DNA of 64,000 nucleotides, from positions 62,001-126,000 of the forward strand of contig NZ_AMSI01000008.1 of assembly GCF_000300515.1 (NCBI RefSeq), written 5' to 3'. Of the stretch, positions 6,267 to 17,467 are shown in pieces. Below the pieces are notes generated by a model, which saw only the letters and a list, made by a program, of their open reading frames with translations, was not told the DNA's origin and did not search any database. Source of the stretch: Nitratireductor indicus C115 (GTDB taxonomy: Bacteria; Pseudomonadota; Alphaproteobacteria; Rhizobiales; Rhizobiaceae). The translations under genes and the position numbers were made by a program. Numbering within the stretch: position 1 is the stretch's first letter; every line of letters begins with the position of its first letter.

Positions 6267-7193
6267 TCAGGCGCCCGTTGCCTGCTGACGCGCGGCTTCG
6301 GCCTGCTGACGGGCAGCCAGAGCCTGTTCGCGGGAAGCCGCCTGGACGGCTTCCTGAACCTTTTCGAAAGCGCGGACCTCGATCTGGCGCACGCGTTCGC
6401 GGCTGATATCGAATTCGCCCGACAGTTCCTCGAGCGTCAGCGGTTCGTCGGAGAGACGGCGGGCCTCGAAGATGCGCTTCTCGCGGTCGTTGAGAACGGA
6501 CATGGCGTCGCCGAGCATGCGGCGGCGGTTTTCCAGTTCGTCCTGCTCGACAAGCATATCCTCCTGGCTCTCCGAATCGTCCACCAGCCAGTCCTGCCAT
6601 TCGCCGGACTCGCCTTCCGTGGCGCGGATCGGAGCGTTCAAGGAAGCATCGCCCGAAAGGCGGCGGTTCATCGAAACCACCTCTTCCTCGCTCACATTGA
6701 GGCGCGTCGCGATTTCGGAGACCTGCTCGGGATTGAGGTCACCGTCGTCGAGCGCCTGAATCTTGCTCTTCACCTTGCGCAGGTTGAAGAAGAGGCGCTT
6801 CTGATTTGCAGTGGTGCCCATCTTCACGAGGCTCCACGAACGCAGGATATATTCCTGGATCGAGGCCTTGATCCACCACATGGCATAGGTGGCCAGGCGG
6901 AAGCCGCGATCCGGCTCGAATTTCTTCACGGCCTGCATCAGGCCTACATTGCCTTCGGAAATGACTTCGCCGATCGGCAGGCCATATCCGCGATAGCCCA
7001 TGGCAATCTTGGCCACGAGGCGCAAATGGCTGGTTACAAGCTTATGGGCAGCCTGAGTGTCGTCACGCTCGGAATAACGCTTCGCGAGCATGTATTCCTC
7101 TTCGGGCTGGAGCATGGGGAAACGACGGATTTCCTCCAGGTAGCGGGTCAGTCCGCCTTCGCCCGAAGCGATGCTGGGTAATGTCTGGGCCAT
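6267..7193 (-). CDS. rpoH: RNA polymerase sigma-32 factor RpoH
   Basis: Heat-shock sigma factor that directs RNA polymerase to chaperone and protease promoters. The 308-residue product has region 2 (LRLVAKIAMGYRGYGLPIG, DRGFRLATYAMWWIKASIQ), the RpoH-box sequence QKRLFFNLRK that sets RpoH apart from RpoD, and a region 4 helix-turn-helix (TLEELSGEFDISRERVRQIE). A Gln/Ala-rich tail follows. ATG at 7193 is preferred over an in-frame TTG at 7196 because GAGGAGG is 7 bases from the ATG. Copy A of the three-hairpin intergenic repeat begins just upstream. Confidence 0.97.
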   Translation of the reverse strand: MAQTLPSIASGEGGLTRYLEEIRRFPMLQPEEEYMLAKRYSERDDTQAAHKLVTSHLRLVAKIAMGYRGYGLPIGEVISEGNVGLMQAVKKFEPDRGFRLATYAMWWIKASIQEYILRSWSLVKMGTTANQKRLFFNLRKVKSKIQALDDGDLNPEQVSEIATRLNVSEEEVVSMNRRLSGDASLNAPIRATEGESGEWQDWLVDDSESQEDMLVEQDELENRRRMLGDAMSVLNDREKRIFEARRLSDEPLTLEELSGEFDISRERVRQIEVRAFEKVQEAVQAASREQALAARQQAEAARQQATGA

Positions 7194-7210
7194 CAAGCAC
7201 CCTCCTCAGA

Positions 7211-7307
7211 ACGGTTCATCGTTTCGTGGAAACGCTGTCCCGCCCAATTTCCTTGTTTTCGCATTTATGCGGGTGTCAGATCATTTCATCTGACTGCAAA
7301 ATGCTCT
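7211..7307 (+). repeat. three-hairpin intergenic repeat, copy A
   Basis: One of four related elements in the window. It has three short hairpins in order: CGTTTC/GAAACG, GCATTTATGC, and GTCAGAT/ATCTGAC, ending in the shared tail TGCAAAATGCTCT. The third hairpin differs from the other copies on both arms, keeping pairing. It lies in the rpoH upstream region and is read on the opposite strand from rpoH. Confidence 0.8.
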
Positions 7308-7489
7308 CGCCGGACCTTCGCCCTGATGGAAACGCCGCTCTTTTGGCGCTCGCTTCCTGCGGGGTCGGCACGGCCGAATTTCGACGCACCGCACCATATC
7401 CCATATGGGACTCATTTCCGACAGTTAAAGCTTCTTCAGAAAGTCAACAAATCGTCATCGGGTGATGAACGATATTACTGTACCGCTTA

Positions 7490-8539
7490 TTACAAAATTT
7501 CGAATGCCTTTGTCAATGCCGTCATGTCGGCAGGGGGCGGGGCCTCGAAACGCATCAGTTCCCCGCTTGCCGGATGGCGGAAAGCAAGAAGGCGCGCATG
7601 CAGAGCCTGACGGCCGAATGCGGCAACGATCGGGCGGACTTCCTCCGGCAGGCGATTGATCTTGGTGCGGAAGGCACGGCCATATTCCTGGTCCCCGACC
7701 AGGGGGTGGCCGATATGGGCCAGATGCACGCGAATCTGATGTGTGCGCCCGGTTTCCAGCCGGCATTCGAGCAGTGCGGCAAATGCGCCGCCCCTGCCGT
7801 CGGAACCATAGCGCTTCTTCACCTGATAATGGGTCACCGCATGGCGCGCATCGCTGCGGCCGGCCGGTACGACGGCGCGCAGGGTGCGGCTCTGCGCGTG
7901 GCGGCCAAGGGCCGCGTCGATGCTGCCGGCCATTCGGTCTGGCGCACCCCAGACCAGCGCCTCATAGGCCCGTTCGAGATCGCCGCTGCGCCCGTGATCG
8001 GCAAAGGCCTCGGACAGGGCGCGATGGGCCCGGTCGGTCTTGGCGACGACCATCACGCCGCTCGTATCGCGGTCGAGCCGATGGACGATCCCAGGCCGCC
8101 GCACTCCGCCAATGCCTGAAAGCGTATCGCCGCAATGGTGCAGCAGCGCGTTGACCAGCGTTCCTGTCCAGTTTCCGGGGGCGGGATGCACCACCAGACC
8201 GGCAGGCTTGTTGACGACGACGAGGTCGGCATCCTCATAGAGGATGTCGAGGGGAATGGGTTCGGGAAGCGGTTCGGCGGGTTCGGCCTCCGGCATCTCC
8301 AGCCCATAGGTTTCGCCGGACGCGACCTTGTGCTTTGGTTCGGTGACGGGAGCATCGCCGCAGCTTACCGCGCCTGCGCGGATGAGGGTCTGTACACGGC
8401 TGCGCGAAACGGCCTCGCCGAGCATCGCGGAAAGCCATCTGTCGAGCCGTTCGCCGGCGGCGTCTTTATCGACGCGGAACTCTTTCCAGCCTTCCGCATC
8501 TTCCCATTGGCCGAGGTCTTCGTTATCAGGTTCGCGCAT
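7490..8539 (-). CDS. RluD-type 23S rRNA pseudouridine synthase
   Basis: RluA-family pseudouridine synthase, probably modifying 23S rRNA helix 69 in the manner of RluD. The 349-residue product has an N-terminal S4-like domain (AAGERLDRWLSAML, VSRSRVQTLIRAGAV) and a catalytic domain with the motif GIVHRLDRDTSGVMVVAKT containing the catalytic Asp. The RTHQIRVHL motif follows. ATG at 8539 is taken; an in-frame TTG at 8554 has no ribosome-binding site. It is divergent from the small membrane-protein gene at 8566. Confidence 0.93.
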   Translation of the reverse strand: MREPDNEDLGQWEDAEGWKEFRVDKDAAGERLDRWLSAMLGEAVSRSRVQTLIRAGAVSCGDAPVTEPKHKVASGETYGLEMPEAEPAEPLPEPIPLDILYEDADLVVVNKPAGLVVHPAPGNWTGTLVNALLHHCGDTLSGIGGVRRPGIVHRLDRDTSGVMVVAKTDRAHRALSEAFADHGRSGDLERAYEALVWGAPDRMAGSIDAALGRHAQSRTLRAVVPAGRSDARHAVTHYQVKKRYGSDGRGGAFAALLECRLETGRTHQIRVHLAHIGHPLVGDQEYGRAFRTKINRLPEEVRPIVAAFGRQALHARLLAFRHPASGELMRFEAPPPADMTALTKAFEIL

Positions 8540-9231: not shown

Positions 9232-10419
9232 TTAGCGGCGCAGCTTCAACATCGCCATGTCGATGTCGAGGGGCGCAGCCAGATCCTCGATGGAATCATA
9301 GAGCAGTTCCAGCGCGTAATGCGGGTTGTGGGCATAGATGCCCGGGTCTGCCGTAACAAGCTTCCAGTTGTAGGCGGCGCGCAGCAGCCGTGGGGTCCAG
9401 GCCTTGTAGGCGACGGGCTTTCCGTCGGTCAGGTCGGCCGCGCCATCGCCATTCGCATCGGCAAAAAAATAGGGATGGCGGTGACCGTCATAAACCATGG
9501 GGCTCGCTGCCACCTTGGCTGAATAGGAAATCAGCATATTCATCAGGCGCTGGGCATTCGCTTCGATGTCGGAGCGTATGCCTACGTTCAGATCGCCGCT
9601 GCCGTCATAGCTCTGGCGCGAAATGCGAATGTCGCGGGGATTGCCTGTCTCATGACAGGTGAGGCAGGTCTCGGTGGAAACTTCCAGACTGTGGGCATCG
9701 TGGCACGAGGTGCAACTGGCGACCGGGCGGGCATGAAAGAAGCGGTCTGAGTATTCCTTCCCGGGATAATGATAACCGGCGGCGCCATAGCCACCGAGCC
9801 AGCTTGCCGCAGCAGTCGCGTAGTGCGGATTGATGAAGCTCAACTCCGGGTCGGAGGTATCGGCCGGACGTTCGCCGATGGCATTGCTGACGGTAGCGCC
9901 CGCCGCGCGCCCTTGATGGCAGGTCATGCAGGCGGCCTCAACACCTGCAACCGGATGCATGATGCCGCTCGGCAGGCGGACTTCCTTGATCTCCGAGAGG
10001 CGTGGATTGTGGCAGGTGGCGCAGTCGACGACACCACCGGTCGGCACGGGTTTTTCGGGCACGCCGGGTGTGCTCCCGTCGAGGCCGTGGAATGAACGAA
10101 AGCCGGCGCCTGAATGGCACACGGCGCATACCGGTGGAATTTCGCCGGCATCGTTCCAATGGCTGAAGGAGGGCGAGCGGGCATCGGAATGGCCGGAGCG
10201 CATCCATGCCTCTATGGCCGCGAAGTTATCGACGGGGATGTTTTCCGGGTGAAAGGGGCCGCTATCGGGCATGACATATGGTCGCACAGGGCTGGTGCCG
10301 CCGCCCGTATCGCTTGCGGTATTCGGTTCCTGCGCCGTGCCGGGGGCCGTGTTCCCAAGAAGAAATGCCGAGGCCGCCAGGACAAAGGCAGCGGAGAATA
10401 CTGTAATTGCTCTGTGCAT
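9232..10419 (-). CDS. periplasmic pentaheme cytochrome c
   Basis: A 395-residue exported protein with a signal peptide (about residues 1-29) and five CxxCH haem-binding motifs: CAVCH, CATCH, CMTCH, CTSCH and CLTCH. The motifs lie in the first two thirds. The C-terminal third has no haem motif but has an EF-hand-like loop DANGDGAADLTD. It should sit in the periplasm and carry electrons. It is transcribed divergently from the nqr operon with only 114 bp between start codons, so a shared control region and a functional link to the complex are likely. I do not recognise a named family; nitrite/hydroxylamine or NapC-type motifs are absent. Confidence 0.88.
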   Translation of the reverse strand: MHRAITVFSAAFVLAASAFLLGNTAPGTAQEPNTASDTGGGTSPVRPYVMPDSGPFHPENIPVDNFAAIEAWMRSGHSDARSPSFSHWNDAGEIPPVCAVCHSGAGFRSFHGLDGSTPGVPEKPVPTGGVVDCATCHNPRLSEIKEVRLPSGIMHPVAGVEAACMTCHQGRAAGATVSNAIGERPADTSDPELSFINPHYATAAASWLGGYGAAGYHYPGKEYSDRFFHARPVASCTSCHDAHSLEVSTETCLTCHETGNPRDIRISRQSYDGSGDLNVGIRSDIEANAQRLMNMLISYSAKVAASPMVYDGHRHPYFFADANGDGAADLTDGKPVAYKAWTPRLLRAAYNWKLVTADPGIYAHNPHYALELLYDSIEDLAAPLDIDMAMLKLRR

Positions 10420-10533
10420 GGCAGTTTTTCCGACGGCTGGATTTCCAAACTCTAGCTGATAACCATAATAGCCGGGTCACCGTTTCGGGCAAATGCGACA
10501 TGAAGGTCGAAATGGCGACAGACCGGAGGAACG
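10420..10533. promoter_or_regulatory. shared cytochrome/nqr control region
   Basis: The only non-coding DNA between the divergent pentaheme cytochrome gene and nqrA. Both promoters should lie here. I see no strong -35/-10 pair or palindrome by eye; GGAGGA at about 10525 is the nqrA ribosome-binding site. Confidence 0.5.
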
Positions 10534-11808
10534 ATGCTGGGCCAGGAATTTCGAGCGGGATTGAGCCTGCCGATCAAGACCCCGCCCCGGACCAAGGCGG
10601 GAATCATCGATCTCATCACCGAGGAAGCGGCCATAACGGCGGCGCCCGGTGAGGAACTGCGGGTCGAGATGGCAGTGTCGGAAGGCGCGCTTGTCGCACA
10701 GGGCGCGCCGCTCGCCAGGCTGCGCGGCCACCCGCAGATTGCATTCGTCGCTCCCATGGCCGGACGTGTCGCTTCAATCACGCTGCGGCCGGGGCATCGA
10801 CTTGGCGAGATCGTGCTGTTCCGAGAGGCAGATGGCGGGCGGTTCCGTCACGACAGAGCGGCTGCCTCAAGCGGGCGGGACGAAGTGGCCGTGCGTGCCC
10901 TTATGCAACAGGCGGGACTGTGGAGTGCATTGCGCAGCAGGCCGTTCGGCCACATGCCGCGCGCCGATGAAAAGCCGGCGGCAATTTTCGTCATGGCGGT
11001 GGATACGCGTCCCCATGCACCCGATCCGAGCGAGGCGCTGAAAGGCAAGGAGGAGGCATTCGCGCGCGGGCTCGATGCGCTGACGGGGTTTACCGAAGGC
11101 CCGGTTTTCGTCTGTCAGTCACGGGGCGCGAATGTCCTGAGCGACGCTTCCAATGGCCGCTTGCGGATCGTGACGACAGGGGAGCGGCATCCGCAGGGGC
11201 TCGCCGGCTTTCAGATCCACGCGCATTTCCCGGCAGGGCTGAAGGCTCCCGTCTGGGATATCCATGCGGAGGAGGTTGCGGCTCTCGGCGCGCTTCTTGC
11301 AAGCGGACATCTGCCTGAGACGCGGCTGGTGAGCATTGCCGGAGCGGCGCTGAGCGAAAGCCGGCTCGTGCGCTGTCAGCCGGGGGCGGATTTGCGCGGA
11401 TTGAGCTATGGCGCCGTGCGGCCCGGCAATCACATTCTGCTTTCGGGCTCGGCTCTTGATGGCCATGAGGCGCGTTGGCTTGCCCCGCGCGACAGACAGT
11501 CGACCGTATTGCCGCGCCATGGCCAGCGTCGGCGGGGGCATTGGTTCGGCGCGGCGTTGTCGCGTGCGGCGCGGCCCTTGCCGATCATCCCGACGGCGGC
11601 GCTCGAACAGGCCTTCGGCGCGGCGTTGCCGGCAGCGGCGATGACGCGCGCACTCGCTTCCGGCGATGACGAAACCGCCGTCAGGCTTGGCGCGCTTTCG
11701 CTTCTTGAAGAAGACCTGGCGCTTGCCGATTATGTGACTGCGGCGGAACCGCGTCTTTCCACGATGCTGCAAGGCATTCTTGCCCGCGTTGCGGCGGAGG
11801 AGGGGTAA
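10534..11808 (+). CDS. nqrA: Na+-translocating NADH:quinone reductase-type subunit A
   Basis: Soluble cytoplasmic subunit associated with quinone access. The 424-residue product shows the NqrA/RnfC-like N-terminal barrel (LSLPIKTPPRTKAG, FVAPMAGRVASI) and the conserved stretch ESRLVRCQPGADLRGL followed by HILLSGSALDGHEA. It is slightly shorter than the roughly 446-residue family norm. GGAGGA precedes the ATG. It overlaps nqrB by one base (TAATG). Confidence 0.93.
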   Translation: MLGQEFRAGLSLPIKTPPRTKAGIIDLITEEAAITAAPGEELRVEMAVSEGALVAQGAPLARLRGHPQIAFVAPMAGRVASITLRPGHRLGEIVLFREADGGRFRHDRAAASSGRDEVAVRALMQQAGLWSALRSRPFGHMPRADEKPAAIFVMAVDTRPHAPDPSEALKGKEEAFARGLDALTGFTEGPVFVCQSRGANVLSDASNGRLRIVTTGERHPQGLAGFQIHAHFPAGLKAPVWDIHAEEVAALGALLASGHLPETRLVSIAGAALSESRLVRCQPGADLRGLSYGAVRPGNHILLSGSALDGHEARWLAPRDRQSTVLPRHGQRRRGHWFGAALSRAARPLPIIPTAALEQAFGAALPAAAMTRALASGDDETAVRLGALSLLEEDLALADYVTAAEPRLSTMLQGILARVAAEEG

Positions 11809-12584
11809 TGATCCGAGGCATCTGGGATCGCGAAACCGTGGCGTTGCTCCTTCTGGCCGCGATTATGCCCATGGCGCTGACCTTTCTCTGGTTCGGTGGA
11901 AGCGGAGCGATCGGCCGGCTTGCGCTTGCGCTCATTGTCGCAGGGCTATGGCACCTGATCTTCATGCTGGCGCGTGCGCAACCGCCTTCATTCGCCGGTG
12001 CCATCGCTGCCCTGGCCGTGGCGATGCTTGTGCCGGAAGAGCTTGGCATGCTGCAGCTTGCCCTGGGTATCAGCTTCGGTTCGGTGATGGCCGAACTTGT
12101 GTTTGGCGGCTGGGGGCGCAATGTGGTCAATCCGGCGACGGTGACGCTTGCGTTTCTTGGCTTCAGCTTTCCCGCTGCGCCCTGGCCGGAACTCGTCTTG
12201 CCCATAGCCTGGGCGGCCATACCGGCTGCGTTGATCGGCGTGGGTTTTGGGGTGATGTCAGGGCGTATCGTGGGCGGTGCGGTTCTTGCCGGAGTGTTTG
12301 CGCTTGCATTCGGCGTGGAGCCAGGGCCGGTTCTGCCGGCGGCGGGGGTGGTTCTTGTGCTGCTCGTCTGCGATCCGGTCGCCAGCGCGGCGACCGGCGG
12401 CGGGCGCTGGCTGAACGGCCTGCTTTATGGCGGCCTTGTCGTGCTTTTCATGCTTGCCTGGAAGACTGCCGCGCCCGTGCAGATTGCGGTGTCGGCGGCG
12501 CTGTTTTCCTCCCTTGCAGCACCGCTTCTCGATGAAGCCGCCATAGGCTTGTGGCTCGCGCGCCGAAGGAGACGTCATGGCTGA
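11808..12584 (+). CDS. nqrB: compact NqrB-type membrane subunit lacking the FMN site
   Basis: Integral membrane subunit, 258 residues against about 400-415 in typical NqrB. NqrB signatures remain: GGWGRNVVNPATVTLAFL near residues 99-116 and CDPVASAATGGGRW near 188-201, with seven or more membrane helices. The D-x-x-S/T-G-A-T motif whose threonine carries covalent FMN in known NqrB is not present anywhere in the protein. In known NqrB this motif lies shortly after the FFAYP-like region; here that stretch (GFSFPAAPWPE) runs straight into the next helix. The N-terminal region is also shortened. The gene overlaps both neighbours, so translation is coupled and a frameshift is unlikely. Confidence 0.88.
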   Translation: MIRGIWDRETVALLLLAAIMPMALTFLWFGGSGAIGRLALALIVAGLWHLIFMLARAQPPSFAGAIAALAVAMLVPEELGMLQLALGISFGSVMAELVFGGWGRNVVNPATVTLAFLGFSFPAAPWPELVLPIAWAAIPAALIGVGFGVMSGRIVGGAVLAGVFALAFGVEPGPVLPAAGVVLVLLVCDPVASAATGGGRWLNGLLYGGLVVLFMLAWKTAAPVQIAVSAALFSSLAAPLLDEAAIGLWLARRRRRHG

Positions 12585-13374
12585 CCTCAATCCGTTCACT
12601 GCATGGCGCCGGCTTCTGGCCCTGCCGAATGAAAGCCGGCTGAAGACTGTGGCGATGGCATTCCTCGTGTCAGCCATCTGCGCCGTGCTGGTCAGCGGTG
12701 CGACGGTGGTGCTGCGGCCTATCCAGGCGGCCAACCGTGCCGCGGAAGAGCAGGCTCGACTGGAAGCGCTGGTGGCAGGCATTCCCGGCATGGCCGATCT
12801 CCTGCAGCGTTCGGGCGGCTCGTTGAGCACGGTGGTCATGGACCTGGCGCGCGGTTCGGCGGCCCGCGAGGTCACGCCGGAAACACTTGAGACGGCACTG
12901 GCCGATCCGGCCAACTGGACAGCGCTTCAGGCGGGTCAGGACATTGCCGGGCTGGGGCAGCGCCCGAATTTCGCGCAGATCTACCTGCTTCGCGACGGAG
13001 ACCGGATTTCGCTCGCGCTGCTGCCGATCAGCGGGGCGGGTTACAATGGCAGGATCGATGCGATCCTCGCCCTGCGGGGCGACATGAGAACCGTTGCGGG
13101 GCTCGCCGTAACGCGCCAGTCGGAAACACCGGGTCTGGGAGCGCGCATCGAAGAGCCGGCATGGCTTGCAAGCTTCGCCGGAAAGCAGGTGAGTGACGAT
13201 ACGGGAACAGTGCGCTTTTCGGTGGCGCGGGGCACGGCTTCCAGTGCCTATGAGGTGGATGGCATAACGGGCGCTACGCGCACCGGCAATGCGGTCACAC
13301 AGATCGTGCGGTTCTGGCTCGGGCCGCAAGGCTACGGCCCGCTGATCGATGCGATCAGGCGCGGGGAGTTCTAG
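12577..13374 (+). CDS. nqrC: Na+-NQR-type subunit C, covalent FMN protein
   Basis: Periplasmic flavoprotein subunit with one N-terminal membrane anchor (about residues 20-45). The 265-residue product contains the full flavinylation motif DGITGATRTGN, with the FMN-accepting Thr at about position 234, then the family tail WLGPQGYGPLIDAIR. ApbE, encoded downstream, is the expected FMN transferase. Overlaps nqrB by 8 bp. Confidence 0.94.
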   Translation: MADLNPFTAWRRLLALPNESRLKTVAMAFLVSAICAVLVSGATVVLRPIQAANRAAEEQARLEALVAGIPGMADLLQRSGGSLSTVVMDLARGSAAREVTPETLETALADPANWTALQAGQDIAGLGQRPNFAQIYLLRDGDRISLALLPISGAGYNGRIDAILALRGDMRTVAGLAVTRQSETPGLGARIEEPAWLASFAGKQVSDDTGTVRFSVARGTASSAYEVDGITGATRTGNAVTQIVRFWLGPQGYGPLIDAIRRGEF

Positions 13375-13377
13375 GCC

Positions 13378-14043
13378 ATGACCGCGCCTTCGCCTCTCTG
13401 GTCCACGCTCACCGATCCACTGGTTCGCCAAAATCCGGTGATGCTGCAGATTCTCGGTATCTGCTCCGCACTCGCGGTGACGACATCGATGGCGACGGCG
13501 CTCACCATGGCGGCCTCGCTCACCGTGGTTCTGGTTCTTTCGGCGGGCATTATCAGCATCATCCGACGCCATATTCCCGATGCGATCCGGCTCATTGTCC
13601 AGATTGTCATCGTTGCCTCGCTGGTCATCGTAATCGACCAGATACTGCAGGCCTATCTTCACGATATCAGCCAGAAGCTCTCCGTGTTCGTAAGCCTTAT
13701 CACGACGAATTGCCTCGTCCTTGGGCGGACGGAATCCTATGCGCGTCTCAACCCGCCTGTTCCTTCCATGGTCGATGCACTCGGCAACGGTCTTGGCTAT
13801 TCGCTGGTCCTGGTGGTTCTGGGCTCGCTGCGCGAGTTGTTCGGCGCGGGCAAGCTGCTCGGCTGGCAGGTGCTGCCGCTGGCAGAACAGGGGGGGTGGT
13901 TCACGCCGATGAGCCTGATGCTTCTGGCTCCCAGCGCATTCTTCCTGCTCGGCGGTCTTGTCTGGGCATTGCGCTCCCTCCGGCCCGAGCAGGCTGAACC
14001 GGCGGAGTTCGTCCCGCCGGTGACGCGGGAGGCGGGCGAATGA
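13378..14043 (+). CDS. nqrD: Na+-NQR-type subunit D
   Basis: Six-helix membrane subunit that, with NqrE, holds the intramembrane iron centre. The 221-residue product keeps the cysteines expected for it: Cys29 in QILGICSALAV and Cys112 in ITTNCLVLGR. The C-terminus overlaps nqrE by 4 bp (ATGA). Confidence 0.95.
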   Translation: MTAPSPLWSTLTDPLVRQNPVMLQILGICSALAVTTSMATALTMAASLTVVLVLSAGIISIIRRHIPDAIRLIVQIVIVASLVIVIDQILQAYLHDISQKLSVFVSLITTNCLVLGRTESYARLNPPVPSMVDALGNGLGYSLVLVVLGSLRELFGAGKLLGWQVLPLAEQGGWFTPMSLMLLAPSAFFLLGGLVWALRSLRPEQAEPAEFVPPVTREAGE

Positions 14044-14651
14044 ACGATCTTGCCGGTCTTTTTCTGCGCGCCGCTTTCGTGGAGAACATGCCGCTCAGCC
14101 TGTTTCTCGGCCTGTGTACCTTTCTTGCCCTGTCGCGGCGCACGGAAACAGCCATCGGTCTCGGCGTGGCGATGATCGCGGTAATGGGCGTGACGGTGCC
14201 ACTCAACCAGCTCATCTACAACGCGCTGCTCATGCCCGGCGCCTGGAGCTGGGCCGGCATGCCGGAGGTCGACCTTTCCTATCTTTCGCTGATCGCCTTT
14301 ATCGGCGTGATTGCGGCGACGGTGCAATTGCTTGAAATGCTGCTCGATCGCTTCTTTCCGGCGATCCATGCGTCCTTCGGCGTCTTCCTGCCTCTTCTTA
14401 CGGTGCAATGCGCGATCCTGGCGGGAAGCCTGTTCATGGTGGAAAGGCATTACACGCTGGCGCAGTCCTTCGTGTTCGGCCTCGGCGGGGGAACGGGCTT
14501 CGCCGTGGCGGTAATCATGCTCGCGGCGGTGCGCAGCCGGCTTGCCTATGCCGATCTCCCCGCAGGATTGCGGGGGCTGGGCATCGCCTTCGTCCTGACG
14601 GGCATGATGTCGCTCGGCTTTTCCTCCTTTGCGCAGATGGTGGCGCCATGA
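14040..14651 (+). CDS. nqrE: Na+-NQR-type subunit E
   Basis: Membrane partner of NqrD, 203 residues, six predicted helices. It keeps the iron-ligand cysteines: Cys26 in FLGLCTFLALS and Cys124 in LLTVQCAILAGS. The motif FVENMPLSLFLG near residues 13-24 is family-typical. Overlaps nqrF by 4 bp. Confidence 0.95.
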   Translation: MNDLAGLFLRAAFVENMPLSLFLGLCTFLALSRRTETAIGLGVAMIAVMGVTVPLNQLIYNALLMPGAWSWAGMPEVDLSYLSLIAFIGVIAATVQLLEMLLDRFFPAIHASFGVFLPLLTVQCAILAGSLFMVERHYTLAQSFVFGLGGGTGFAVAVIMLAAVRSRLAYADLPAGLRGLGIAFVLTGMMSLGFSSFAQMVAP

Positions 14652-15877
14652 ACGAGGTGGTTCTCGCCAGTCTTGTGGTGATGCTTCTCGTCGTCGGACT
14701 GACGGTAGGGCTTCTGGCGGCGCGGCGGCGGCTTGTTCCGCAGAGCGCCGTGACTGTCACAGTCAACGATACGACCCGCATCGAGGCATCGCGGGGCGAC
14801 AAGCTGCTTGGGGTTTTGCATGGCGCGGGCATCGGCATTCCGGCTGCCTGCGGGGGTTCGGGCACATGCGGGCTGTGCCGTGTCACGGTGACGGGCGAGG
14901 GCGCGGGCGAACCGCAGGCAACCGAACGCGGCATCCTTTCGGCAGCCGAGCGGAGGGCGCATATGCGCCTTGCATGCCAGACCACGCTACGCGGTTCGTG
15001 CGCTGTGACGGTTCCGCAGGACGTGCTGGCGGCGGGTGGCGGTTTCACCTGCCGGGTCGTGTCGAACCGCATGATGGCGCCGCTGATCCGCGAGCTGGTG
15101 CTGGAATTGCCGGAGGGCCAGCCTTTCGATTTCAGGGCCGGCGGCTTCATGCAGCTCACCGCGCCGGCCTATAGTCTCGATTTCGGCAGGATCGACCTCG
15201 ATGAGGGCTTCCGCGAAGCATGGCGCATTGCAGGCTGGGACCGCATGTCCGCAGTCTCTCATGCGCCCGTGACGCGTGCATATTCCATTGCCTGCCGCCC
15301 GGAGGACAGTGCCCGCGGGCAGGCGGTCTTCAACATCCGCCTTGCCGTGCCGCCGGTCGGTCGCGAGCTGGAGGTTCCGCCGGGCGCGGTGTCATCCTGG
15401 CTCTTTGCCCGCAAGCCTGGCGACATGATCGATGTCTCGGGGCCGTTCGGCGATTTCCATGTTCAGCCGACCGACCGCGAGATGGTCTTCATCGGTGGCG
15501 GTGTCGGCATGGCGCCACTCCGGGCGATGATCCACGAACAGATCGGCAAGGGAAGCGGGCGCAGGATGCGCTATTTCTACGGCGCTCGCTCTCTGGCCGA
15601 TCTCTTCTATGTGGAGGAGTTCGAGGCCATTGCCGCTGCGCATGAGAATTTCATCTGGACGCCGGCGCTTTCCGACCCGGCTCCCGGCGATCGCTGGCGG
15701 GGTGCGACCGGGTTCATCCATGAAACGGTCCGCGATGCCCTGCGGGGGCATCCTGCGCCGGAGGATTGCGAATACTATTTGTGCGGACCGCCCGTCATGA
15801 TCTCGGCTGTTCTGGCCACGCTCGAGCGGCTCGGTGTCGAACGGCAGTCCATCTTCAACGACGATTTCGGAGTCTGA
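14648..15877 (+). CDS. nqrF: Na+-NQR-type NADH-oxidising subunit F
   Basis: Electron entry subunit that oxidises NADH and passes electrons through FAD and a 2Fe-2S cluster. The 409-residue product has an N-terminal membrane helix, a ferredoxin domain with Cys68, Cys74, Cys77 and Cys110 (ACGGSGTCGLC, LACQ), an FAD motif RAYSIAC and a NADH site FIGGGVGMAPLRAM. Length matches the family. The frame is open upstream to 14408, but the ATG at 14648 overlaps the nqrE stop as in the rest of the operon. Confidence 0.95.
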   Translation: MNEVVLASLVVMLLVVGLTVGLLAARRRLVPQSAVTVTVNDTTRIEASRGDKLLGVLHGAGIGIPAACGGSGTCGLCRVTVTGEGAGEPQATERGILSAAERRAHMRLACQTTLRGSCAVTVPQDVLAAGGGFTCRVVSNRMMAPLIRELVLELPEGQPFDFRAGGFMQLTAPAYSLDFGRIDLDEGFREAWRIAGWDRMSAVSHAPVTRAYSIACRPEDSARGQAVFNIRLAVPPVGRELEVPPGAVSSWLFARKPGDMIDVSGPFGDFHVQPTDREMVFIGGGVGMAPLRAMIHEQIGKGSGRRMRYFYGARSLADLFYVEEFEAIAAAHENFIWTPALSDPAPGDRWRGATGFIHETVRDALRGHPAPEDCEYYLCGPPVMISAVLATLERLGVERQSIFNDDFGV

Positions 15878-15880
15878 CCC

Positions 15881-16864
15881 ATGAGCGCGTTCCAGATCCG
15901 GCCCAGCCGCCGCACCCTTCTCGTTATGACCGGTTCGCTGCTGGCGGCGCCAGCCATCGCCCGGTCGCAGACGCGCGCCGTCGAGGTGATGGAAGGCCGT
16001 GCCTTTGCAACCGGCTGGCGCCTGACACTGCCTGCGGGCGGGCGCGGCGAGGTTTTGCGCGCACCCATCGAGGCGTTGCTGGCGGAGGTGGATCGCCAGA
16101 TGTCGCCATGGCGGGCCGATAGCGTCGTCAGCCGCTTCAATGCTGCGGGAGCAGGCGAGCATGCGGTACCAGCCGAAACGGCGGCCGTGACCGCTGCCGC
16201 GTTGCGCATCGCGCGTGATAGCGGCGGGCGGTTCGATCCTACGGTCGGTCCGCTCGTTGCCCGCTGGGGGTTCGGCCCCATCGAGGGGGACGGCGTGCCG
16301 GACTGGCATGGCCTTGCGGTCGGCGAGACCGATATTGGCAAGTCGCGGCCGGGCCTGACACTCGATCTCTGCGGGATCGCCAAGGGGCGGGCCCTGGACG
16401 GGATGGCTGAGATCGTGCGCGGGGCCGGCCATGATGATTTCCTGATCGATCTCGGGGGCGAGCTTGCCGCAGGCGGCCGGCATCCTTCCGGCCGGGACTG
16501 GCAGGTCGCGGTGGAGGATCCGCGCGGCGATGGTCTGGAACCGGCAGGCATGCTGCGGCTTGGCGGCATGGCGGTAGCGACCTCGGGTGGGCGGGCACAG
16601 AGCTATTCGCTGGACGGGCGCAGCTACAGCCATATCATCGACCCGGCAACGGGCGAGCCGGTGGCCGGGGCTCTGGCCTCCGTATCCGTTATCGGGCAAG
16701 CGGCCATGTGGGCCGATGGCTGGGCGACGGCGCTTGCAGCGGCAGGCCCGGTGGAAGGCCCCGCGCTGGCGCGTCGCGCGGGAATTTCCGCGCTCTTCCT
16801 CATCCGGGAGGATGCAGGCCTGCGGCACGAGGCGACCGGCACGTTCGACCGGCATCTGATTTGA
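15881..16864 (+). CDS. apbE: FAD:protein FMN transferase ApbE
   Basis: Periplasmic enzyme that attaches FMN from FAD to threonine in Nqr/Rnf subunits. The 327-residue product starts with a Tat-like signal (SRRTLLVMTGSLLAAP) and has the family motifs RFDPTVGPLVARWG, LDLCGIAKGRALD, DFLIDLGGEL and HIIDPATGEPV. It lies 3 bp after nqrF. Here its visible target is NqrC, because NqrB lacks the acceptor motif. Confidence 0.94.
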   Translation: MSAFQIRPSRRTLLVMTGSLLAAPAIARSQTRAVEVMEGRAFATGWRLTLPAGGRGEVLRAPIEALLAEVDRQMSPWRADSVVSRFNAAGAGEHAVPAETAAVTAAALRIARDSGGRFDPTVGPLVARWGFGPIEGDGVPDWHGLAVGETDIGKSRPGLTLDLCGIAKGRALDGMAEIVRGAGHDDFLIDLGGELAAGGRHPSGRDWQVAVEDPRGDGLEPAGMLRLGGMAVATSGGRAQSYSLDGRSYSHIIDPATGEPVAGALASVSVIGQAAMWADGWATALAAAGPVEGPALARRAGISALFLIREDAGLRHEATGTFDRHLI

Positions 16865-16898: not shown

Positions 16899-17075
16899 AT
16901 GGAACTGGTTCTCGGCGTTGCAGTCTTCCTCCTGGCGGCGGTCGGGCTCGCCATCGGGCTCATTCTCGGTCGGGGTCCCATCGAGGGTTCTTGCGGAGGG
17001 CTTACCTGCATCAAGGGCGCTTCCTGTGCCGGTTGCCATAGTCGGGCAGGAAAGGAAGCGGAGGAAGCGCCATGA
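16899..17075 (+). CDS. nqrM: NqrM iron-delivery accessory protein
   Basis: A 58-residue protein with one N-terminal membrane helix (about residues 3-24) and four closely spaced cysteines in GSCGGLTCIKGASCAGC. This matches DUF539/NqrM, needed in Vibrio for maturation of the NqrD/E iron centre. Its ATG at 16899 follows AAAGGACGAG, and its stop overlaps the next start (ATGA). Confidence 0.88.
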   Translation: MELVLGVAVFLLAAVGLAIGLILGRGPIEGSCGGLTCIKGASCAGCHSRAGKEAEEAP

Positions 17076-17467
17076 GCACGGATTTGACTGTCGCTGCGAT
17101 CATGCAGACGGATTGTCCCGTTCTGGCGCGGGAAATGCCCATCAGGCGCGCGGTTGCTCTGCTTGTGGAGAGCGGCGTTGCGGCAGCATCGGTTACGGAC
17201 GAGAGCGGGGCGCTGGTCGGTATCCTCACGCAGAAGGATTGTTTTCGCCCGGCACTGCATGCCAGCTATTATCAGGAATGGAAGGGAACCGTCGCCGATC
17301 ACATGACGGCGGGTGCGGTGTCGCTGTCGACGTCGGACGATCTCATATCTGCGGCGCAGGCCTTTCTCGATCATCCGCACAGGGTGTTTCCGGTTCTCGA
17401 TGAGGGGCGTCTTGTCGGAATGTTGCGCCGCGCGGATGTGCTTGCCGCGCTCCTGCGGGTGGGGTGA
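17072..17467 (+). CDS. two-CBS-domain protein
   Basis: A 131-residue soluble protein consisting of two CBS motifs (about residues 8-60 and 72-128; DESGALVGILTQKD and DEGRLVGMLRRADV). CBS pairs bind adenosyl nucleotides and report energy state. Translationally coupled to nqrM by a 4-bp overlap, it looks like an energy-sensing accessory to the Nqr-type operon rather than a standard nqr gene. Confidence 0.85.
   Translation: MSTDLTVAAIMQTDCPVLAREMPIRRAVALLVESGVAAASVTDESGALVGILTQKDCFRPALHASYYQEWKGTVADHMTAGAVSLSTSDDLISAAQAFLDHPHRVFPVLDEGRLVGMLRRADVLAALLRVG

Follow-up and report, generated by a model that had tools for sequence, protein, structure and literature searches.

The window, the whole stretch of 64,000 nucleotides analysed here, comes from Nitratireductor indicus C115 (assembly GCF_000300515.1, contig NZ_AMSI01000008.1, positions 62,001 to 126,000 of the forward strand) and contains an operon for the six subunits of a Na+-translocating NADH:quinone oxidoreductase (Na+-NQR) in which one subunit, NqrB, is markedly short. 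In the route described for Na+-NQR, electrons pass from NADH to flavin adenine dinucleotide (FAD) and the 2Fe-2S cluster of NqrF, to the 2Fe-2S cluster of NqrD/E, to flavin mononucleotide (FMN) on NqrC, to FMN on NqrB, and through riboflavin to quinone (PMC9325719, PMC12174285). The short NqrB lacks the loop that carries its FMN, and a multiheme cytochrome gene adjoins the operon. The locus is laid out as follows.

9232..10419, minus strand: secreted pentaheme cytochrome c of 395 amino acids, with five CxxCH motifs and a signal peptide recognised by eye, divergent from nqrA
10420..10533, no strand: intergenic region of 114 bases common to the cytochrome gene and nqrA
10534..11808, plus strand: nqrA, 424 amino acids, with N-terminal, second and SLBB domains
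11808..12584, plus strand: nqrB, short form of 258 amino acids, without the FMN loop and the N-terminal quinone-pocket segment
12174..12200, plus strand: junction in NqrB, at about residues 123-131, where residues 225-272 of Vibrio cholerae NqrB (with T236 and A263) are absent
12577..13374, plus strand: nqrC, 265 amino acids, the periplasmic FMN subunit
13267..13278, plus strand: flavinylation motif TGAT of NqrC, residues 231-234
13378..14043, plus strand: nqrD, half of the membrane 2Fe-2S site
14040..14651, plus strand: nqrE, the other half of that site
14648..15877, plus strand: nqrF, the NADH/FAD/2Fe-2S input subunit
15881..16864, plus strand: apbE, FMN transferase
16899..17075, plus strand: nqrM-like small Cys-rich protein of 58 amino acids, named only for its motif and for the annotation of its positional counterpart
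17072..17467, plus strand: protein with two CBS domains

NqrD, NqrE and NqrF score above their NCBIfam equivalog cut-offs (NqrF reaches 413 bits to TIGR01941, for which the cut-off is 295), and NqrA, NqrB and NqrC score below theirs. A preliminary description of this DNA had stated that NqrC keeps its D-x-x-T-G-A-T motif and that the iron cysteines of NqrD and NqrE are intact. Both statements hold: NqrC carries VDGITGAT, and C29 and C112 of NqrD together with the cysteines of NqrE align with the 2Fe-2S cysteines of V. cholerae, all four being kept (roles as in PMC9325719). There is also a second SGAT at residues 40-43 of NqrC (12694-12705), at the membrane-anchor end and shared by many, not all, relatives; it has no preceding Asp and is probably fortuitous.

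The same description had reported an NqrB of 258 amino acids without an FMN motif, a gap falling at the FMN segment and an overlap with both neighbouring genes, and each of these points was borne out. The earliest common start codon in the nqrB frame is at 11808, with none upstream, and the gene overlaps nqrA by 1 base and nqrC by 8 bases. No [ST]GA[ST] was found in the nqrB frame, nor any D..[ST]GA[ST] in the three forward frames of 11701-12700. The alignment with V. cholerae NqrB in the PDB is interrupted around T236, and in a multiple alignment the window row is gapped over V. cholerae residues 225-272. A displaced flavinylation motif, which had been named as the finding that would overturn the claim, occurs in none of the 38 short-NqrB frames that we collected (two of them broken) and in neither of two plasmid copies. 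Likewise, a canonical NqrB encoded elsewhere that might complement the short one was sought, and PF03116 matches only two short copies in the 73-contig assembly.

The 38 operons are those of the window and of the loci L014-L029, L004, L060-L075, L078 and L114-L116. Residues were tabulated for 33 of them, leaving out L114-L116 and the two with broken frames, L017 and L023, both of which still count among the 38, and were compared with 15 canonical NqrB sequences. It should be noted that two rows of this table were labelled 'RnfD-like' by a crude string rule and that one of these, L049, has canonical NqrB residues and is not among the 15, and that no usable NqrB was obtained from L005, L006 and L011 under the pattern used. 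The gap region holds 21 residues in 33/33 aligned short forms, the window included, as against 65 in 14 and 62 in one of the 15 canonical sequences. This identical gap length, together with plasmid records from four named organisms that carry the same short gene, rules out an assembly error and also a frameshift, which the preliminary description had thought unlikely.

More than the FMN loop is missing. The column of the Na+ ligand A263 is gapped in 33/33 short forms, and the E274 column, which lies at the gap edge where the alignment is unsure, holds E in 15/15 canonical and 0/33 short forms. E157 is found in 15/15 canonical and 0/33 short forms, and G140, which we take to be one of the glycines of helix III, in 15/15 and 1/33, respectively. 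The former lies where the proposed Na+ path opens to the cytoplasm (PMC10643135), and the helix III glycines have been tied to opening of the quinone site (PMC4014512); the roles of NqrB residues in general are drawn from these two papers together with PMC12174285 and PMC9325719. Usually 7-8 residues (range 3-32) precede the first transmembrane helix in the short forms, compared with 53 in V. cholerae. This comparison rests on V. cholerae and on a structure model because starts of the canonical genes were set at the first Met (25 residues before that helix in 10/15, 53 in 4 and 88 in 1). The predicted NqrB model aligns only with chain residues 49-413, and the NqrB fold is retained. PF03116 is the only domain found, with no fused PF00175 NAD-binding domain. 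Of the riboflavin contacts (taken from PMC9325719), T162 is kept in 26/33, N200 in 24/33, N203 in 22/33 and D346, as D or E, in 33/33, the window having A at the T162 position. Thus the riboflavin pocket may survive, while the NqrB FMN and the quinone pocket are lost.

A scan of genome contigs gave 16 short-NqrB loci in genera such as Pseudooceanicola, Paracoccus, Martelella and Shinella. Samples of Pseudomonadota genomes, in which only a few candidates were scored per genome, yielded the short form in 17/397 genomes of the window's order, 2/385 of its class and 4/349 of its phylum (the window's own genome, which carries two, is counted each time). The positive genomes of all three samples belong to the window's class, and all 38 operons are apparently alphaproteobacterial. 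In the window's genus the distribution of the operon is patchy: of 11 genomes, the window's own and G007 carry the short form, G008 carries a canonical NqrB, and the other eight yield no match. Plasmid records with the short gene come from Nitratireductor sp. OM-1, Paracoccus seriniphilus, Pseudooceanicola algae and Shinella sp. HZN7; the OM-1 copy is not independent of L078 (from G007), since the two are 98% identical in DNA. The locus titled Marinicella sp. W31 (L023), a gammaproteobacterial name, is probably misnamed, because its copy of the window's sigma-factor gene (RpoH by eye) is 81% identical to that of the window, which matches the values for Martelella (81%) and Shinella (82%), that of Pseudooceanicola being 65%.

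A phylogeny was reconstructed from joined NqrD, NqrE and NqrF, with NqrB excluded, for 36 short-NqrB operons (L017 and L023 were left out) and 15 canonical ones. The 36 fall on one side of a single branch with 100/100 support; among the rows of this tree, two (L069 and L115) are long and 11 canonical ones have an odd composition. The clustering of short FMN-less forms, for which a tree of NqrB/RnfD had been proposed as a check, is observed here with these other subunits, and the short-NqrB operons are a lineage rather than an accident.

The cytochrome accompanies this lineage. The window protein has CxxCH at residues 98, 133, 164, 236 and 252, and a homologue adjoins 34/38 short-NqrB operons: 17/17 in the set of the window and L014-L029, 14/18 among L004, L060-L075 and L078, and 3/3 in L114-L116. 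In 33 operons its gene diverges from nqrA, and in one (L064) it lies downstream of the operon. All 34 cytochromes have five CxxCH motifs and no CX3CH or CX4CH. The gene also adjoins 4/4 plasmid copies. Among the 397 genomes of the order, 16 have the cytochrome (E 1e-20 or better), 17 the short NqrB and 14 both (Fisher p 4e-21, uncorrected for kinship), and the cytochrome is absent from all 34 order genomes with other NqrB/RnfD matches. In the 15 canonical nqr stretches, of 10-15 kb each, we found no homologue of the cytochrome or of the nitroreductase described below, and no open reading frame (ORF) with at least three CxxCH. Profile matches of the cytochrome in the PDB are weak (the best is a Cytochrome c-552 chain, E 0.002), and it has no PHROG match. 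The two order genomes that have the cytochrome without a short NqrB carry a more distant copy elsewhere (L076, L077); by eye, one of these copies lies near formate dehydrogenase-like genes and the other by a P450-like gene, with no nqr in either stretch. A pentaheme cytochrome 43% identical to that of the window was also found on the Defluviimonas plasmid NZ_CP156080.1 (L132), separated by two genes from a PepSY/DUF2271/ApbE flavinylation cluster, between two-component regulators and with no nqr in the stretch shown.

The four operons without this cytochrome (L004, L062, L068, L069) all carry other periplasmic redox proteins, so that such a partner is present in 38/38: the cytochrome in 34, a nitroreductase-family protein in three and an NqrC-tetraheme fusion in one. 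L004, L062 and L068 have, near the operon, a gene of the nitroreductase family (PF00881) whose product bears a twin-arginine-like signal, recognised by eye. L004 (G000:C7:80000-96000, 3.3-9.6 kb, minus strand) is the second FMN-less nqr operon of the window's genome; its NqrB is 36% identical to that of the window and its NqrC motif is SGAS. In L068 a small ORF with one CxxCH, at about 5.8-6.4 kb on the minus strand between the nitroreductase gene and nqrA, is possibly the gene of a monoheme cytochrome and would be divergent from nqrA. L069 comes from a genome of nine contigs. Its NqrC is fused at the C-terminus to a tetraheme domain (6337-7707, minus strand; Cytochrom_c3_2, PF14537, E 5e-18), and its nqr operon is split in two by the gene of a flavoprotein with a twin-arginine-like signal. 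The best PDB matches of this flavoprotein are flavocytochrome c fumarate reductases (1d4c, 1qo8 and others), in which a tetraheme domain and a flavoprotein form one chain; in L069 the tetraheme domain is on NqrC and the flavoprotein is separate. The transfer of the heme part onto NqrC is the most direct hint that NqrC may pass electrons to periplasmic hemes.

An FNR-like box with at most two mismatches lies upstream of nqrA in 22/38 short-NqrB operons, compared with 2.7 expected from shuffled sequence. Within one mismatch the counts are 15/38 short and 1/15 canonical, and 14 of these 15 boxes in short-NqrB operons lie 61-104 bases from the inferred nqrA start. The shuffles were mononucleotide only, and nqrA starts were inferred by alignment. 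By eye, acetate kinase and phosphotransacetylase genes are near L004, L062 and L069. The boxes and these neighbours suggest, without proving, that the short-NqrB complex is used at low oxygen.

We propose, with a probability of roughly two in three, that these operons encode a membrane complex, derived from NQR, by which electrons of NADH are carried out to the periplasm. NqrF, with its FAD and 2Fe-2S cluster, would oxidise NADH, and the electron would cross the membrane through the 2Fe-2S cluster of NqrD/NqrE to FMN on NqrC. This FMN would then pass it not to quinone but to a dedicated periplasmic partner, which would be the divergently encoded pentaheme cytochrome in most operons and elsewhere the secreted nitroreductase-family protein, or the tetraheme domain fused to NqrC, feeding the fumarate-reductase-like flavoprotein. 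The return branch into the membrane, through the NqrB FMN and the quinone pocket, would have been removed, NqrB staying as a scaffold with a variably kept riboflavin pocket. Delivery to the partner is the simplest reading of a complex that retains every site as far as the FMN of NqrC, has lost the NqrB FMN and the quinone pocket, and has gained a partner; the outward direction is favoured because the partners are reductase-like. The NqrB ion pathway looks disabled. Ion pumping may persist through NqrD/E, which are well conserved and are the site proposed in the RNF complex of Acetobacterium woodii (PMC12174285). Electron path, direction, ion coupling and final acceptor are thus what we infer from gene content, the missing segments, conservation, the single branch, partner synteny and the one fusion.

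Several observations weigh against this proposal. NQR-type machines may run either way, so the direction is put forward conditionally. Members of the cytochrome family are also found in stretches that hold no nqr (L076, L077, Defluviimonas), and the predicted structure of the cytochrome is poor (mean confidence score, pLDDT, of 50). No FNR-like box lies upstream of the window's own nqrA, and 5/15 canonical loci also have one at up to two mismatches. The NqrC-tetraheme fusion is a single case, found in 1/28 genomes of its family, where no second NqrC fusion was seen, and in 1/38 operons. Finally, the riboflavin-site residues are mostly kept, and therefore the return branch may not be dead.

This last point leads to the principal alternative, that the complex is still a quinone reductase in which FMN-NqrC reduces the NqrB riboflavin directly, skipping FMN-NqrB, and quinone is reduced at a remodelled site with the cytochrome as a side partner. 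For two-subunit complexes in which this threonine is also lacking, it has been proposed that the covalent flavin samples the non-covalent flavin site (PMC11334425), and the N-terminal quinone helices are missing from RnfD too (PMC12174285). However, the quinone-pocket N-terminus of NqrB is missing here and G140 is replaced in 32/33, some forms, a minority, have the riboflavin asparagines replaced while the rest of their operon is unchanged, and a quinone reductase leaves the periplasmic redox partner of 38/38 operons unexplained. We rate this reading as unlikely. A little less probable again is reverse flow, with a periplasmic donor reducing the cytochrome and the complex using an ion gradient to drive electrons uphill to NAD+. 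Machines of the NQR/RNF type can run in reverse, and multiheme cytochromes work both ways. The swapped partners nevertheless resemble reductases (the nitroreductase family and flavocytochrome c fumarate reductase), although the flavoprotein family of the L069 protein includes dehydrogenases as well, and the FNR-like box in many operons also argues against it. That NqrB is decaying or mis-assembled and the complex is being lost is refuted by conservation: the broken frames in 2/38 records (L017, L023) are most likely sequencing errors, and they stand against 36 open frames, the uniform gap length, the plasmid copies and two intact operons in the window's genome.

Several known systems are closely similar to this complex. 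It shares with the Na+-NQR of V. cholerae six subunits in one operon, the NqrC FMN site, the NqrD/E cysteines, NqrF and the NqrB fold, but differs in its short NqrB without the FMN loop, the N-terminal quinone segment and E157, in the adjoining periplasmic redox partner and in the apbE that accompanies the operon in 35/38 cases. Since the FMN threonine of NqrB, its N-terminal quinone-pocket segment and its Na+ path (E157 and the backbone of the Na-1 site), all defining features of Na+-NQR, were looked for and are lacking, we file it as an NQR-derived variant rather than as Na+-NQR. Nor is it an RNF complex, given that the operon holds nqrA and nqrF, not RnfB or RnfC, and the FMN threonine of RnfD is also missing. 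Two-subunit NQR/RNF-like complexes likewise combine an NqrB/RnfD-type subunit without a flavinylation site with an FMN-binding subunit, and one-way flow from NAD(P)H to the outside has been proposed for them (PMC8238504, PMC11334425). Unlike the operon described here, they have only two apparent subunits, with NqrB fused to an NAD-binding domain; they keep the opposite half (PMC8238504, PMC11334425), whereas the six-subunit complex would use the transmembrane path of NqrD/E. In Methanosarcina acetivorans, a related complex, Rnf, is encoded with a multiheme cytochrome c, MmcA, and passes electrons to an acceptor outside the cytoplasm (PMC11024163). That system is an archaeal Rnf with a heptaheme, OTR-related cytochrome (five CxxCH, one CX3CH and one CX4CH; PMC11024163), whereas ours is a bacterial NQR whose cytochrome has five CxxCH only; the two cytochromes are set apart here by their heme motifs.

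The preliminary description had suggested a possible NQR subclass, as yet undescribed, whose electron route differs. The single branch agrees with this, and the titles, abstract openings and open-access passages covered, among them passages of PMC10734462, report neither an NQR of six subunits that lacks FMN-NqrB nor a multiheme cytochrome encoded with an nqr operon. The suggestion was incomplete in that the quinone-pocket segment and Na+-path residues are lost as well, and in that the conserved periplasmic partner, the cytochrome having gone unmentioned, suggests where the electrons go. We lean, somewhat beyond even odds, towards a distinct class in which the quinone-reducing half has been lost and the NQR ion pump has turned into an NADH:periplasm oxidoreductase that spans the membrane and whose terminal modules, in the periplasm, are exchangeable. 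Such a complex bears on the debate over whether redox-driven ion movement in NQR/RNF uses an NqrB channel or NqrD/E (PMC12174285), for a conserved natural NQR without FMN-NqrB and the Na+-path residues of NqrB separates the two coupling models. Pumping by the short-NqrB complex would mean that the NqrB model is not general, and its absence would make the complex an uncoupled variant of natural origin; should ions still move through NqrD/E, coupling would need neither FMN-NqrB nor the NqrB channel. It would also represent a direct respiratory route from NADH to the periplasm that is hidden by current annotation, as the four plasmid records annotate the short NqrB as 'RnfD' beside 'NqrA'.

Other genes of the operon and its surroundings deserve brief mention. 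The nqrM-like ORF of 58 amino acids (16899-17075) has no Pfam or NCBIfam match, and the ORF at its position in Nitratireductor sp. OM-1 carries the annotation NqrM. The two-CBS-domain protein is perhaps a regulator of the complex. Its gene is present in 37/38 short-NqrB operons, the contig of the 38th (L020) stopping directly after apbE. As a marker of the short form it is weakened by a weakly similar CBS protein (26-34% identity) in 4/15 canonical nqr stretches. A gene of the Na/Ca-exchanger family lies near 5/38 operons (L060, L067, L004, L062, L068). The apbE of the Nitratireductor operon in NZ_CP029209.1 is annotated as two adjoining pieces (604132-605108).

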